Source: Leifsonia shinshuensis (GTDB taxonomy: Bacteria; Actinomycetota; Actinomycetes; Actinomycetales; Microbacteriaceae). From it: a stretch of DNA of 64,000 bases. The stretch is from positions 3,472,001 through 3,536,000 of the forward strand of contig NZ_JACCFL010000001.1 in NCBI RefSeq assembly GCF_013410375.1, given 5' to 3'. Numbering within the stretch: position 1 is the stretch's first letter; every line of letters starts with the position of its first letter. A model generated the notes under the pieces. That model worked only from the letters and a program-made list of their open reading frames with translations, did not search any database and was not told the origin of the DNA. Below, one piece after another: positions 40,591 through 47,675 of the stretch. Both the position numbers and the translations under genes were made by a program.

Positions 40591-41595
40591 CTAATCGACC
40601 GAGATGAGGCTCCGGATCAGGGCCACCGTCTCATTCTTCTTGCTGGGGTCACTGGCGGCCGCGATGAGGGTGAGCGCAGTCAGCATGTTGCGCGGGACCG
40701 CCTTTTCGAGCCCGATGCCGTTCCGGTCGAGGAAGTAGGCGAACAGCGCCGCCCCGGTGCGCTTGTTGCCGTCACCGAACGGGTGATCTTTGACCACCAG
40801 GTAGAGAAGGTTCGCGGCCTTCTCCTGCGCGCTCGGATAGAGGTCCTGACCCGTGAACGTCTGGTCAATCTGCCCGATGACTCCGTGAATGGAGTCATCC
40901 TTTGCGATGCCCAGCCGTTCATCGTCCGGATAGCGCTCGCGGAGTTCTTCGACGATGCGTTCGACGTCGGCGATGTCAATACGGGCGGTCGCCAGCGCCT
41001 CCTCCGATACTTTCACCTCTCCTCGGTCATAGTCGGCGAGGCGGTCGAGGTCCCCGGCGTACCGCTGCATGATCCGACCGATACTCGCCAACTGCTCATC
41101 GTGGGAGGTCGCGAGCAGCTCCGTCACCTGGCGCAGCCGGTGGAGTTCAGCGGCATTCTGGTCCAGAATGCGCCGGCGGAGAATGCCGGTAGCCCACCGT
41201 CGAAAGTGAACGCCTCTCGGCGAATGCACCCGATAGCCGACCGAGATGATTCCATCGAGATCGTAGTGCTGGATGCTTCGTGCGACATCGCGAGAGCCTT
41301 CACGTCGAACTATCCGGAAATCCCGGATGGTTGCCTCACGTTCGAGCTCGCCGCTGCTGAAAGCATTTCCCAGGTGCTCGTTGATGGTGCGCACATCGAC
41401 CGCGAACAGTTCCGCCATCTGCGCCTGTGTGACCCACACCGTCTCTCCGTCGAACCGCACCGGCAGCTTCACCGCACCGTCAGGCGATGAGTAGAACTCC
41501 ACGCCGGTCTCCGACGCGAACGACTCTTCATCGGGCTCGGCGTTCGGCGTGCCACGCGTCTCTCGACTGCTCATAGCGACCTGCCCCTGATCCAT
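40591..41595 (-). CDS. RhuM-type protein with C-terminal Fic domain
   Basis: A 334-residue protein. The N-terminal half matches the RhuM (virulence protein) pattern: VEFYSSPDGAVKLPVRFDGETVWVTQAQMAELFAV and IQHYDLDGIISVGYRVHS. The C-terminal half has a Fic/Doc motif HPFGDGNKR (271-279), with the catalytic His and the phosphate-binding GNKR. Fic domains transfer AMP to Ser/Thr/Tyr of target proteins. Such fusions occur in accessory regions, often with toxin-like activity, but no antitoxin gene or obvious inhibitory helix is visible beside it. An ATG seven codons in is an alternative start. It opens the accessory block after sdhB. Confidence 0.85.
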   Translation of the reverse strand: MDQGQVAMSSRETRGTPNAEPDEESFASETGVEFYSSPDGAVKLPVRFDGETVWVTQAQMAELFAVDVRTINEHLGNAFSSGELEREATIRDFRIVRREGSRDVARSIQHYDLDGIISVGYRVHSPRGVHFRRWATGILRRRILDQNAAELHRLRQVTELLATSHDEQLASIGRIMQRYAGDLDRLADYDRGEVKVSEEALATARIDIADVERIVEELRERYPDDERLGIAKDDSIHGVIGQIDQTFTGQDLYPSAQEKAANLLYLVVKDHPFGDGNKRTGAALFAYFLDRNGIGLEKAVPRNMLTALTLIAAASDPSKKNETVALIRSLISVD

Positions 41596-41746: not shown

Positions 41747-42535
41747 TCAGTTGACACCGTCCCACGTGTAGGCACGGGCGAACGGGACCTTGACCTCGGC
41801 ACCCAGGTTCGGTGCGAGCCACACGATCGTGAAGTAGCCGAAGTGCCGGACCAACTGGGTCTGCTTGACGTCGAACGAGAAGGTGTTGCCCACGAGCGTC
41901 ACTCCCCCGACGACTTCCCAGCCCTCGATGGCCGAGTAGGCCGCGAGAGCGATGTCGCCCTCCGGCAGCTGCGTGCCCTCGGGCACCAGGATCTTTCCGG
42001 TGAGCGTGGTCGTGCCTCCGCGCGGGCTCTCGAAGAGGAACTGGTCGTAGACGAGCGTCGGCGTCCCCACGGGGGGCGGGGTGGTGGGGAAGTCCTTCTC
42101 CAGCGCGGCCTCGGCGGGCACCCAGTTGGCGTGATTCGCGGCGGAGATCGTCACCCGGCCCGTCCGCGCCCCTGTGGGCAGTCCGTGCACGATGATCTCG
42201 AAGGTGCGTCGGTCGTCGCTCAGGACAGGCTGGGCCAGCACCTCGAAGTAAGCAGCGTCCTCGACGGTCGCGGTGAGGACGAGGTTCGCGGGGACGTCTC
42301 CCCCTGCCGCCGGAGTGATGGTTCCGGTGATCCGCCCCACGTAGGCGCCGGCCGGCTCCAGCGTGTAGGTGCTCTTGTCGATGCCGATCACGCCGGCGGG
42401 GTCCTTGGCCGGCGAGGCGGCGTGGGCCGGCGAGGCGGCGGCGAGGGCGATGGCCGGGGCGGCCCAGGCGGCCGTCTTGGCGACCGCGCGTCGGGAGACG
42501 AGACGAGGCGCGTCGGAGTCGGGTGTGTCGTTCAC
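41747..42535 (-). CDS. Tat-exported protein with Ig-like fold, unknown function
   Basis: A 262-residue protein with a twin-arginine signal: SRRAVAKTAAWAAPAIAL, RR at 15-16, cleavage near AHA-A (about 39). The mature part is beta-rich with two repeated-looking units and no catalytic motif. It opens with IDKSTYTLEPAGAYVGRITG, similar in position to the FDKALYTVAPSES segment of its neighbour at 44573. The GTG start is set by the shared leader: GAAAGG some 16 bases upstream and N-terminus MNDTP. It is the first of three paralogous exported proteins in a row. It might bind or anchor to the wall; no enzyme function is claimed. Confidence 0.75.
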   Translation of the reverse strand: MNDTPDSDAPRLVSRRAVAKTAAWAAPAIALAAASPAHAASPAKDPAGVIGIDKSTYTLEPAGAYVGRITGTITPAAGGDVPANLVLTATVEDAAYFEVLAQPVLSDDRRTFEIIVHGLPTGARTGRVTISAANHANWVPAEAALEKDFPTTPPPVGTPTLVYDQFLFESPRGGTTTLTGKILVPEGTQLPEGDIALAAYSAIEGWEVVGGVTLVGNTFSFDVKQTQLVRHFGYFTIVWLAPNLGAEVKVPFARAYTWDGVN

Positions 42536-42687: not shown

Positions 42688-44382
42688 TCAGTCCCGCGCC
42701 TGCAGCATGAACGTCGCGTACTGCGTGGATGCGATCGCAGTGGCCTTGACCCCCGGAAGCACGCGCGGCACCTTCGTGCGGGACTCCTTCACACCGGCTC
42801 CGACCTCGTAGTTGCCGTTGTAACCCCAGCCGAGCACGCTTCCGTCCGTCAGGAGAGCGTGGCCGGTCTCGCAGCCCCACGCCATCGAGTGGACGTGGCT
42901 GAGGCCGAGGTCGACCGGGCTGACGCGGCGGGTCGTGTCGCCCAGGCCCATGTTGTAGTAGTTGCCGCGGCCCCACGCCCGCACCGTCGCGTCCGCGAGG
43001 ACGACACTGGTGTTGTACCAGCCGGTGTCGACGCGCACGGCGGTGTCGATGCCAGGCACCCGGGTCGGCACGGTGCGGTTGGTCACGGTGCCGTCGCCGA
43101 TAGCGCCGTGGCCGTTGTGGCCCCAGCCCCAGACCGTCCCGTCGTCGAGGACGGCGGTCGCGCCGTTGTACCGGCCGCCGATATCGACGACCTTCCGGCC
43201 CGGGGGGAAGCCGGTGATGCGGGTGGGGATCTGGGCGTCGCCGCCCGCGGAGCCCAGGCCCAGCGAGCCGTAGTTGCCGTGGCCCCAGACCCAGAGGGCT
43301 CCGTCGCCGTCGATGGCATAGACGGTGCGGGTGCTCGCGGCGATCTTCGTGACGTTCGAGATGTTGGCGAGCAGGACGGGGGTGAGCTGTTCGCTCTTGT
43401 TGTTCCCGTCGCCCATCGCGTAATACACGCGGGAGCCCCATGCCCAGACGTGGCCGTCCTCGGTGAGGACGTAGGTCGCCTTGTCGGTGCCCGCGACCTG
43501 GGCGATGTCCGTCGGGAGGCCGTGGATCGGCTGCGGGGTGGTCTTCGTGCCCCGCGAGGCCTGGACGTGGCCGGCGTCCGACCCCCAGCCCCAGAGCGTC
43601 CCGGAGGCGTCGACGGCCCAGCCCTTGCGGTTGGGGCTCGTGCCGATGAGCCGGATGGAGCCCACGCTGGCCGGGATGCTCACACCGGACGGGATCGGGC
43701 TGTTGCGGGTGGACCCGTTGCCGAGCTCGCCGGTGCCGCCGTAACCGGCGGACAGGACCATCATGACGGCCTGGACGCGAAGGAAGCCCTCGTCCGTGGC
43801 GACGTCCGGCTTGCCTGCGATGGTGCGGGTGGCGGTGACGGTGATACGCAGCACGCCCAGCCCCAGCCCCGCCCTGACCGGCGGAGGGGTCGCCAGGCCA
43901 CTGGCGGAGGAGGTGACAATGACCTTCTTGGGACCGTCGACGCCGCCGAAGCCGGCCGAGGCGGGGGAGCTGCTGCCAGGGTCGTCCGTATCGGGCTCGT
44001 CGTCCTCGCCCGGCTCCTCCGGCTCGGGCGCCTCGCCGTCCTCGATCTCGTCGATGCGGAACTCGACCTGCGCACCGGCCACCACGCCGTTGCGGTCGCG
44101 GACAGTGGCGGCGACCGCGGGAAGGGCGAACTCTTCGCCGGGCCTGGTCGTGTAGACCATCGACGTCAGCGTGACGGTGAACGTGCCGACGGGAGGAGGG
44201 GACGCGGCGAAGGCCGGCGAAGCGACCGCCAGGGCGACGGCGGGTGCGGCCCAGGCGGCGGTCTTGGCGACAGTGCGCCGGGTTATGCCGAAGGACGCAC
44301 CCTCATCTGCGGGGGGGGGGGGGGGCGATCCCGTCAGTTACGGATGCGGACTTCCGGGGGGGGGGGGGGTAATGCCGTTCAC
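42688..44382 (-). pseudogene. RCC1-repeat Tat-exported protein, interrupted by two poly-C tracts (possible phase-variable gene)
   Basis: A GTG at 44382 begins MNGITPPPP, like the MNDTP starts of both neighbours, and has the same GAAAGG leader. After a 14-C tract the frame meets TAA (44338-44340), giving a 14-residue peptide. Past a second 15-C tract the frame reopens with a normal Tat signal (GITRRTVAKTAAWAAPAVAL) and no usable start before it. The body has an Ig-like part and then at least six RCC1 propeller repeats with WGWG or WGRG strands. A tract pair of 15 and 14 C (or 12 and 17, and so on) would restore 564 codons. It is either phase-variable or a base-count error. Confidence 0.75.
44311..44369 (-). 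repeat. Paired homopolymer tracts, 15 and 14 bases
   Basis: G runs of 15 (44311-44325) and 14 (44356-44369) on the plus strand, 30 bases apart, encode C runs in the 5' part of the RCC1-like gene. Random occurrence of two such runs so close together is very unlikely even in high-GC DNA. They are the classic substrate for slipped-strand change. Confidence 0.9.
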
Positions 44383-44515
44383 TACGTCAAGGAGCCTTTC
44401 GCGGAACTCGTGAAATGTACAACGTACAATCTAGCACCTGGCACGCAGGAGCGTCTATGTGCGGTTCTCGTCCGCTTCCTTGCTCGGCATCCAACCGGCA
44501 ACCCGGAAGGGGTGA

Positions 44516-44572: not shown

Positions 44573-46207
44573 TCAGCGAGTGCTGGCGAAGTAGCTGTAC
44601 TGTGTCGTGCCGATGTCCCGGATCCCTACCAGGCCCTCCACCCGCTTCGGGCGCAGGACGGGGCTGACCCGGTTGCCGTTGCCGTTCTCTCCCGACCCGT
44701 TGTAGCCCCAGTGCCAGACCGAGCCGTCGTTCTTCAGAGCGAGGCCGGAGTGGGCGTTGAACACGACCTTCTTCACGCCGGTGAGTCCGTTGTCGAAGAC
44801 GCCGACCGGGTAGCCGCCGCTCACGCCCTGGCCGTTGGCCGCGTAGTCGCTGGTGCCCCAGGTGCGCAGCGAACCGTCGCCGAGCACGACCGCCGAGTTG
44901 TACCACCCGCCGAACAGGCTCTGCGCGTCCGCGATGCCCGGGACCTGCAGCACCGCCGCCCGGGCCGCGATGGAGGGCACACCGAGCATGTCGTAGAGCC
45001 CGCAGCCCCATCCCCACACCGTGCGGTCCTCCATGATCACGTGGCCGCCGTAGAAGTGGGCGGACACGTCGGTGGCACGCCGGCCCTCCGGGAGCTGGAC
45101 CCGCGTGGGCACCCACGTCCGCACGCCCAGGCCGTCACCGCGAGCCTCGAAGGCGATGTCGCCCCACGACCACACGGCGCCGTTCTCGTCGAGCGCATAG
45201 ACGTTCCAGAGCGCGGCGGCGACCTTGACGATCTTGCCCGCCTCTGCGGGGAACTTCACCTCGGACGGCGTGCGCTTGTAGCCGCCCTGGTCCGCGGTGT
45301 CGCCGTCGCCGAGCATGGCGTAGGCGCGGTAGCCCCACGACAGGACGCGACCGTCCGACATCAGGGCGTAGTGGGCGTAGTACCCGGAGACGACGTCGAC
45401 GGCCCCGGGGAAGGTGCCGACGCTCACCGGTTCGGGGTTGACGACGCTATTGCCGGGGATGCCGGGGACTCCGTAGCCCCAGCCCCAGATCCGGCCCGTG
45501 CTCCGATCGAGCGCGAACTGGCTGACCCCCGCCGAGCGGCCCAGTGTGAGCCCCGCGATGTCCGGGATGGTCGTGCCGAGCGGCACCACGGCGTCTCCCG
45601 CCGCGATGCCGGCTCCGAGGACGCCGAGATAGTTGTAGCCCCAGGACACGATGGCCGCGTCGCGGAAGACGCGGAGCACCGCCGCGGCGGAGGCGGGGAC
45701 TCCCGCGACCGTGGTCTCGGCAGTGACGTTCAGAGCGCCCTGCCACGCGCCGGCGGTGATGAGCGGGAGCACGAGCACTCCCGTCGGGGAGGTCACGCCG
45801 ACGAACGTCGTGCCTGCGGCGAACCTCGCCGTGGGGCGCTCGAGGCCCGAGACCCCCTCGCCCGGGTCCTCGACCCCCGGGCCGTCCACACCGTCGTCGG
45901 CTCCCGGGCCGCCGACGTCGTCGATCTGGGCGATCGTGACCGTCACGCGGGCGTTCGCGACGGGACCGCCCGCGTCGACCACCGTGACCACGACGCCGCC
46001 GGCCGGGAGGCTCTCGCTCGGCGCGACGGTGTACAGCGCCTTGTCGAAGCTCACTGCCAGGGCGGCCGGGGACGAAGAAGCGGCGAAAGCCGGGGAGGAG
46101 ACGGTCGCGAGGATCGCCGGCGCGGCCCACGCCGCCGTCTTGGCGACCGTGCGCCGGGAGACGAGGTGGTCGGAGCGCGCGGGCTCGGTCTCGGGGGTGT
46201 CGTTCAT
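44573..46207 (-). CDS. Tat-exported RCC1-repeat (beta-propeller) protein
   Basis: A 544-residue protein. The Tat signal has RR at 18-19 in LVSRRTVAKTAAWAAPAIL, with cleavage after FAA (about 43). An Ig-like segment with an acidic, Gly/Pro-rich stretch (GGPGADDGVDGPGVEDPGEG) comes next, then about seven RCC1 repeats (SWGYNYLGVLG, WGWGYGVPG, SWGYRAYAMLGDG, SWGDIAFEARGDG and so on). RCC1 propellers bind proteins or ligands. Outside the cell the role is unknown; adhesion or surface recognition is an inference. It is homologous to the interrupted gene downstream but has no homopolymer tract. The start is chosen at MNDTPE, with AAAGGA about eight bases before it. Confidence 0.82.
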   Translation of the reverse strand: MNDTPETEPARSDHLVSRRTVAKTAAWAAPAILATVSSPAFAASSSPAALAVSFDKALYTVAPSESLPAGGVVVTVVDAGGPVANARVTVTIAQIDDVGGPGADDGVDGPGVEDPGEGVSGLERPTARFAAGTTFVGVTSPTGVLVLPLITAGAWQGALNVTAETTVAGVPASAAAVLRVFRDAAIVSWGYNYLGVLGAGIAAGDAVVPLGTTIPDIAGLTLGRSAGVSQFALDRSTGRIWGWGYGVPGIPGNSVVNPEPVSVGTFPGAVDVVSGYYAHYALMSDGRVLSWGYRAYAMLGDGDTADQGGYKRTPSEVKFPAEAGKIVKVAAALWNVYALDENGAVWSWGDIAFEARGDGLGVRTWVPTRVQLPEGRRATDVSAHFYGGHVIMEDRTVWGWGCGLYDMLGVPSIAARAAVLQVPGIADAQSLFGGWYNSAVVLGDGSLRTWGTSDYAANGQGVSGGYPVGVFDNGLTGVKKVVFNAHSGLALKNDGSVWHWGYNGSGENGNGNRVSPVLRPKRVEGLVGIRDIGTTQYSYFASTR

Positions 46208-46430: not shown

Positions 46431-47675
46431 GTGGCCAGGAAGTCGCGACACGGGGAGGGCACGGTGACGGCGCAGCCCGATCCGTCGCTCCAGCGCGCCG
46501 AGGGGACGGTCGAGCCGGAGGAGACGCTCAAGGAGCGCATCCTCGACGCCGCCGAGCCGCTGAAGGAGCGGCTCGAGAAGCCGGTCGCGCGGGTCTCCCG
46601 CTGGGCCAAGTGGGTGCAGTCGCTACGGCCGTACCGCGTGTACATCAACTTCTCGCACTCCGACGGCAACCTCCGGGCCGCCGGGATGGGCTTCCAGTCG
46701 CTGTTCGCCGTATTCGCGGCGGTCTGGCTCGGGTTCTCCGTCGCGGGCGTCTGGCTGAGCAGCAACAACGACATCTACGAGTCGCTGGTGGAGATCATCA
46801 ACCGGGCGATCCCCGGGCTCATCTCCACGCCCACGTCGACCGGCGTCATCAACTCCGAGCAGCTGGAGTCGGCGACGTCGTTCGGCTGGTCGGGCGTCGT
46901 CGCCGCGGTCAGCCTGCTCTGGACCGCGATCGGCTGGCTGTACTACACCCGCCAGGCCGTGCGCGCGGTCTTCGGGCTCAGCCGGGACACCACCAACTAC
47001 GTGCTGCAGAAGATCCGCGACCTGTTCCTCGCGCTCGGGTTCGGGCTGGTCCTCATCTTCTCCGCGCTGATCTCGATCATCAGCACCCAGGCCGTCGCCT
47101 TCTTCCTCCAGCTCGTCGGACTCAGCTCCGACACGTTCTGGACCGACGCGCTCACCCGGTTCTCCGGGCTGCTGATCTCGGTGGTGCTCAACATTTTCAC
47201 GCTGGGCGCGATGTTCCGCGTGATGGCGCGGGTCGCGATCCCGTGGCGCAACCTGTTCTTCGGCGTGCTGCTCGGCGCCTGCGTGCTCGCCGGGCTGAGC
47301 GCCCTCGGCGGCCTCCTGCTGACCGGGGCGACCAAGAACCCGCTGCTGGCGACCTTCGCCGTCTTCGTCGGTCTGCTGATCTGGTTCAACCTGGTGTCGC
47401 GCGTCATCCTGCTGTCGGCCTCCTGGATCGCGGTCGGGATGTTCGACAGCGGCATCTCGCCGCGGATGATCACGCCCGAGCAGGCCGCGGCCGAGCGCGC
47501 GGCGGCGGAGTACGAGGCGCGGGTGCTGGTCGCCAAGGCGGAGCTGCAGAACGCGCGGGACGAACTGGCGCGGGCGAAGTTCCTCGCCCGGCTGAGCGCG
47601 CAGCGCAGGGTCGAGAAGGCCGAGCACCAGCTCAACGACCTGCTCGACGAGAGCGGCGTCGCCGCCCGCCGCTAG
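46431..47675 (+). CDS. YihY/BrkB-family membrane protein
   Basis: A 414-residue protein with about six transmembrane helices of the YihY family, once annotated as ribonuclease BN in error. Conserved helix ends include NLRAAGMGFQSLFAVFAAVW and LLWTAIGWLYYTRQAVRAVFG. The C-terminal 80 residues form a charged helix (EYEARVLVAKAELQNARDEL) that is probably a cytoplasmic coiled coil and is longer than in many members. The start is the GTG with TATCCT six bases upstream; open sequence before it is not coding-like. The function is unknown; a role in envelope transport has been proposed for relatives. Confidence 0.85.
   Translation: MARKSRHGEGTVTAQPDPSLQRAEGTVEPEETLKERILDAAEPLKERLEKPVARVSRWAKWVQSLRPYRVYINFSHSDGNLRAAGMGFQSLFAVFAAVWLGFSVAGVWLSSNNDIYESLVEIINRAIPGLISTPTSTGVINSEQLESATSFGWSGVVAAVSLLWTAIGWLYYTRQAVRAVFGLSRDTTNYVLQKIRDLFLALGFGLVLIFSALISIISTQAVAFFLQLVGLSSDTFWTDALTRFSGLLISVVLNIFTLGAMFRVMARVAIPWRNLFFGVLLGACVLAGLSALGGLLLTGATKNPLLATFAVFVGLLIWFNLVSRVILLSASWIAVGMFDSGISPRMITPEQAAAERAAAEYEARVLVAKAELQNARDELARAKFLARLSAQRRVEKAEHQLNDLLDESGVAARR

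Follow-up and report, generated by a model that had tools for sequence, protein, structure and literature searches.

In the sortase-pilus system of Bifidobacterium breve, a G-tract lying between the signal and the body of the pilin was shown by experiment to slip (PMC9187656). Together with Gardnerella and the pglX gene of Streptomyces, this case contradicts an earlier note on the present DNA, which held homopolymer phase variation to be known chiefly from pathogens and not from high-GC actinobacteria; such switching being already known there, the surprise that the note attached to the host group falls. In Propionibacterium acnes, G/C tracts are variable, and the authors read this variation as slow accumulation. 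In Mycobacterium smegmatis, NucS leaves indels of 1-2 nt unrepaired, which the authors link to mycobacterial phase variation (PMC11551767). As for the RCC1-repeat proteins of bifidobacteria, they are described as diversifying and wall-anchored, with 10 of them in B. actinocoloniiforme (PMC4449606), while 19 RCC1 copies are reported in B. asteroides in a paper according to which these proteins have been given no distinct function (PMC3447821).

Here, we describe a gene of Leifsonia shinshuensis located in a 64,000-nucleotide stretch of DNA that was analysed as a whole (the window), and which we regard as probably, if by no means certainly, a phase-variable (contingency) gene encoding an exported protein with an RCC1 propeller, off in the assembly and held by a serial two-tract lock. 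By its habitat, Leifsonia lies outside the usual host-adapted examples. On the minus strand of the window sequence, the elements follow one another in the order leader, tract, spacer, tract, signal and body (Table 1), and the C14 and C15, 30 bases apart between a GTG leader and a Tat-type signal, are indeed where the earlier note had read them. The region of ITRRTVAKTAAWAAPAVALAVASPAFA, a putative twin-arginine signal, displays in translation a twin-arginine motif, a hydrophobic stretch and an AxA-like site. At the present tract lengths, the body frame offers no ATG, GTG or TTG before the ATG at 44160, which lies past the signal. The assignment of an RCC1-like propeller to the body comes from two models, PF25390 and PF00415, both exceeding their curated cut-offs, and its best solved relatives by sequence are the propellers of UVR8 and HERC2. 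Upstream of the leader, the GAAAGG stretch, judged by eye, resembles a ribosome site. A near direct repeat, TTGTAC/GTTGTACATTT (window 44413-44429, minus strand), also lies 5' of the leader, its second half being kept in the related genome G020; it is a possible regulator site.

Table 1. Elements of the two-tract gene and of its surroundings (positions are those of the window).
Feature	Position	Strand	Basis
GTG start and leader GTGAACGGCATTA	44370..44382 (GTG 44382-44380)	-	sequence
First tract, C14	44356..44369	-	sequence
Spacer, 30 nt, both non-open frames bearing a stop	44326..44355	-	frame enumeration
Second tract, C15	44311..44325	-	sequence
Putative twin-arginine type signal ITRRTVAKTAAWAAPAVALAVASPAFA	about 44203..44286	-	translation; same signal type in sister genes
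Body, 490 aa, annotated from an internal ATG	42688..44160	-	481/490 identical protein in another strain
RCC1-like propeller region	42736..43758	-	PF25390 181.3 bits (cut-off 150); PF00415 130 bits (cut-off 21.7)
Upstream block common to the G020 tract gene, holding TTGTACATTT and a ribosome-site-like GAAAGG stretch	44383..44439	-	110-nt alignment
Paralogue with RCC1 repeats and open leader, without long run	44573..46207	-	PF13540 and PF00415 above cut-off; PF25390 134.9 bits, below the cut-off of 150
Exported (putative) 262-aa gene with a like leader, without long run	41747..42535	-	no Pfam match
Conserved membrane-protein gene at the island edge	46434..47675	+	present in 28/28 genus genomes

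Reading frames were enumerated over a 10 by 10 grid, the length of either tract running from 10 to 19 C. With the assembled lengths (14/15), translation stops after 14 codons; when the first tract alone is corrected (15/15), it stops after 26 codons, and lengths of 15/14 open a frame of 564 codons. Across the grid, this long frame requires a first tract of 0 mod 3 combined with a second of 2 mod 3, since translation in either of the other frames meets a stop inside the spacer; run-length changes therefore move the gene in or out of frame, and both tracts are required. The arithmetic given in the earlier note (a stop after 14 residues, 564 codons, and an early end when only the first tract is changed) is exact throughout the grid. 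Since opening the frame from 14/15 needs a change in both tracts, either switching would be rare or the assembled lengths are inaccurate.

The mechanism that we propose is one in which the two C tracts, lying as they do between start codon and signal peptide, would slip during replication and so set the reading frame. The stop-bearing spacer makes both tracts necessary, as in an AND lock, and the exported protein would be made only in cells having both tracts in register. The assembled 14/15 state is off, and on cells may be rare, or the assembled lengths may not be those of the main state. We infer slippage at this locus, its reversibility, the export of the product and its surface role; the tracts of this locus were not seen to vary in length.

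The two runs stand out sharply in their genome. The chromosome (4,418,190 bases) holds eight C/G runs of at least 8, with lengths of 8, 8, 8, 8, 8, 10, 14 and 15, and the only ones reaching 12 or more in these 4.42 Mb are the C14 and C15 of this locus; the other C/G runs of the window do not exceed 6. A long homopolymer in a 5' coding region is thereby far above the genome background, and a chance origin of the C14 and C15 was ruled out by the run counts of both the window and the chromosome. A C9 or longer run beside a Tat signal was sought in 398 family genomes, including 10 of the 28 genus members and without G020, and was found in a single one, the genome under study.

An orthologous tract of another length does exist in G020. 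There, the tract gene adjoins the same membrane-protein gene and leads from TTGAACGGCGTTA through a C31, placed at the same codon as the tract of the window, to a putative Tat-type signal. Over the 110 nt up to the tract, the alignment between the window and G020 scores 66.0, as compared with a mean of 24.2 and a maximum of 38.9 for 300 letter shuffles. The mature protein behind the C31 is different from the RCC1-like body of the window: it has no Pfam match, and its relatives in other Leifsonia (40-41% identity) start without a proline run. Since upstream block and leader match while the product differs, the promoter-leader-tract part is common to both genomes and the exported part is not. 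In our own translation from the TTG, the C31 leaves the signal out of frame, and the protein deposited for this gene begins within the signal.

The gene is part of an island, i.e. a small group of genes sharing a leader and a Tat-type signal (MNDTP...SRRTVAKTAAWAAPAIALAAASPAHA and variants), which is flanked on one side by succinate dehydrogenase genes, and on the other side by the conserved membrane-protein gene, presumably YihY. The island was read in nine genomes: such genes number three in the genome under study, two in each of G020, G027 and G010, one in each of G024 and G026, and none in G008, G002 and G022. Besides its two island genes, G027 carries a broken RCC1 copy on the far side of the membrane-protein gene. 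The intact paralogue to which the earlier note had pointed at 44573 does have an open leader and RCC1 repeats, without a long run. Sister leaders carry ACCCCC or ACACCC at the tract position, which is likely the seed from which the tract arose. Two other upstream blocks were considered as homologues of that of the tract leader and rejected: the block of the paralogue scores 22.1, no better than its shuffles (mean 23.0), and that of the gene at 41747 scores 45.3, which is suggestive but inside the range of its shuffles (mean 25.2, maximum 48.6). None of the 145 proteins examined has, among its first 60 residues, the proline run expected of an in-register copy. Beside the island (window 40591-41595, minus strand) lies a RhuM and Fic domain protein matching the PADLOC candidate defence models PDC-S23.

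Profile searches of the genome under study found NucS and, at the thresholds used, no MutS; in a control set of 14 genomes, the model for NucS gave matches in 7 and that for MutS in 11. C12 or longer runs are present in at least 18 of the 28 genus genomes, for most of which the first run alone was read. Some of these runs sit in clusters of GC runs or at contig ends and, as several may be assembly trouble, the genus-wide count was dropped as evidence by itself. At L069, L075 and L078, long runs of G alternate with long runs of C in clusters that are possibly assembly artefacts, and the long runs at L063, L065 and L083 look intergenic. A G23 of G014 (L070:1501-1523) is found within an open frame with a NUDIX domain, and a C23 of G008 (L071:1501-1523) separates an acyltransferase-3 domain from an SGNH domain in different frames, making it a candidate for a second switch in the genus. 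A further locus could be compared between two genomes, G004 (L073:1501-1520) and G022 (L162:1587-1602): along 3,012 aligned columns, one substitution and one gap were counted, the sole gap falling at a poly-C tract (C20A5 versus C16A3). As the net difference is six bases, the frame is preserved, and what the locus shows is therefore instability and not switching; the difference may also originate from assembly error. The frame beside this tract bears a weak resemblance to STAND-like ATPases.

A parallel emerges in another family, among the exported RCC1-repeat genes of bifidobacteria. The bifidobacterial genome G039 has 22 runs of C11 or more, six of which lie inside the signal-peptide codons of such genes (loci L195-L200). 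Two of the six genes read through their tract and four are broken exactly at it, while a seventh copy, devoid of tract, is open; these counts cover the RCC1 loci read, the genome having further RCC1 matches. A signal-and-start query matched 4 of the 101 genomes of the bifidobacterial family, with 36 matches in all. Tract genes are in frame in two cases and out in three in G527, whereas in G537 four are in frame, each with a G10, and seven out, each with a G11 (the tract loci of both genomes fall among L203-L231); the three copies of G507 are all without tract. The total is 22 bifidobacterial exported RCC1 genes with a G10-G14 tract in their signal-peptide codons, eight in frame and 14 out, a count which leaves out six G537 matches that came without a locus and two G527 copies cut by a contig end. 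Elsewhere in G039, a C11 and a C15 lie 23 nt apart (L176:1467-1515), with no clear coding frame seen, and in Bifidobacterium apousia a G12 (L036:3221) is located about 1.8 kb upstream of an RCC1 match. The word homopolymer has no occurrence in the main texts of PMC4449606 and PMC3447821, in the form in which these were available.

A different history could leave a similar locus behind, namely a recently silenced gene in which the ACCCCC of the leader grew by unrepaired slippage, the frame was lost and the runs now drift unused. Every assembly examined is out of register, an intact paralogue adjoins, the absence of MutS would let runs grow without selection, and the related RCC1 gene of G027 (L093:4718-6341) is dead, a deletion having disrupted it at a site remote from long runs. 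The body itself speaks otherwise. The protein of another L. shinshuensis genome is identical at 481 of 490 positions, of equal length and annotated from the same internal ATG, which suggests that its leader is also out of register. Several independent inactivating changes, the mark of a plain pseudogene that the earlier note had proposed to look for in related strains, are absent from the 490 codons of the genome under study and from this second protein, where not a single lesion was seen. Six of the nine replacements between the two strains are BLOSUM62-positive, against 25% expected of random missense (P about 0.011, for one strain pair), a conservative pattern that argues weakly against silencing; in the same single pair, the intact neighbour at 41747 differs at 7 of 262 positions and is no less changed than the body (Fisher P 0.44). 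The codon-position GC of the body is like that of the paralogue, and altogether this one strain pair gives modest evidence of constraint on the body. With G020 moreover keeping its tract at this codon, followed there by another protein, we judge silencing unlikely, while giving it real weight.

The run lengths might also be errors of assembly, in which case almost every cell would have the gene in frame, without variation. Sequencing through runs of 14 and 15 is difficult, and a B. breve G-tract recorded as G11 turned out to be mostly G12 (PMC9187656), but both runs would need to be wrong, the protein of the second genome is likewise annotated from the internal ATG and, even then, runs so long should slip; we hold this to be quite improbable. 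Even less credence goes to a switch at the level of decoding, where RNA polymerase or the ribosome would slip on the runs and yield some protein without DNA change: poly(A) transcriptional slippage is reported in Buchnera (PMC2831843), but a single message would need two slips.

The phase variation suggested by the earlier note is thus supported in part. What is observed in its favour is the anatomy of the locus and its frame logic, the tract of other length in G020, a lesion-free body, NucS without MutS, another unstable poly-C tract in the genus and the bifidobacterial RCC1 analogue; to its detriment, both tracts must change, and no variation of either was seen here. The contingency reading is further weakened because all three assemblies (that under study, that of the second strain by inference, and G020) are out of register, as random lengths would also give, and because one slip cannot open the frame from 14/15. 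It also suffers from the frame-keeping difference between G004 and G022, from the G027 RCC1 copy simply broken away from a long run, from the rarity of tracts adjoining Tat signals (a single one of 398 family genomes, that under study), from a constraint comparison that is one strain pair with a neighbour no less changed, and from the reading of P. acnes tract variation as slow accumulation.

A broader proposal can be formulated, which we consider possible but rather doubtful. Two or more actinobacterial families would have arrived independently at homopolymer phase variation of exported RCC1 propellers, which would thus be a recurrent target; the promoter-leader-tract module of Leifsonia would keep its place while the exported protein is exchanged; and the genome under study would harbor a serial two-tract AND gate with a stop-coded spacer, a deep off state and rare on cells. 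If the contingency reading is true, a MutS-less actinobacterium gambles, through C runs that slip, on displaying or concealing an exported protein. To our knowledge, the function of bacterial RCC1 proteins is largely open, and the bifidobacterial parallel gives a hypothesis for them, that of variable surface propellers at times worth hiding. The serial two-tract lock would moreover lend itself naturally to testing how the rate of switching is tuned.

In the literature searched, no match was found for secreted bacterial RCC1 proteins combined with phase variation, absence there not being absence from print, and the one paper on bacterial phase variation retrieved for two tracts applies that phrase to tracts in a genome. 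The pilus switch of B. breve is comparable with the locus of the window in belonging to a high-GC actinobacterium and in its homopolymer, which is set there between secretion signal and surface-protein body and was shown to slip; it differs in having one tract, a Sec signal and a pilin, with no serial lock and no RCC1 protein. In Streptomyces coelicolor, again a high-GC actinobacterium, the phage-defence gene pglX is also switched by tract length, but its tract is single and short (8 to 7 G; PMC4365076). Actinobacterial homopolymer tracts are shared with Gardnerella, where those of at least 8 vary between colonies (PMC11287997); Gardnerella has many tracts per genome, whereas the genome under study has two of at least 12 in its entirety. 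The bee-gut bifidobacterial RCC1 families, as far as the available texts describe them (PMC4449606, PMC3447821), are similar in their exported propellers and, in G039, G527 and G537, in the homopolymers of their signal codons, but differ in being multi-copy and wall-anchored, with poly-G and one tract per gene. As far as our searches went, and in the portions of the literature they returned, the new elements would be the occurrence in this genus, the lock of two tracts in series, the conserved tract leader whose downstream protein is exchanged, and the poly-G in RCC1 signal codons.
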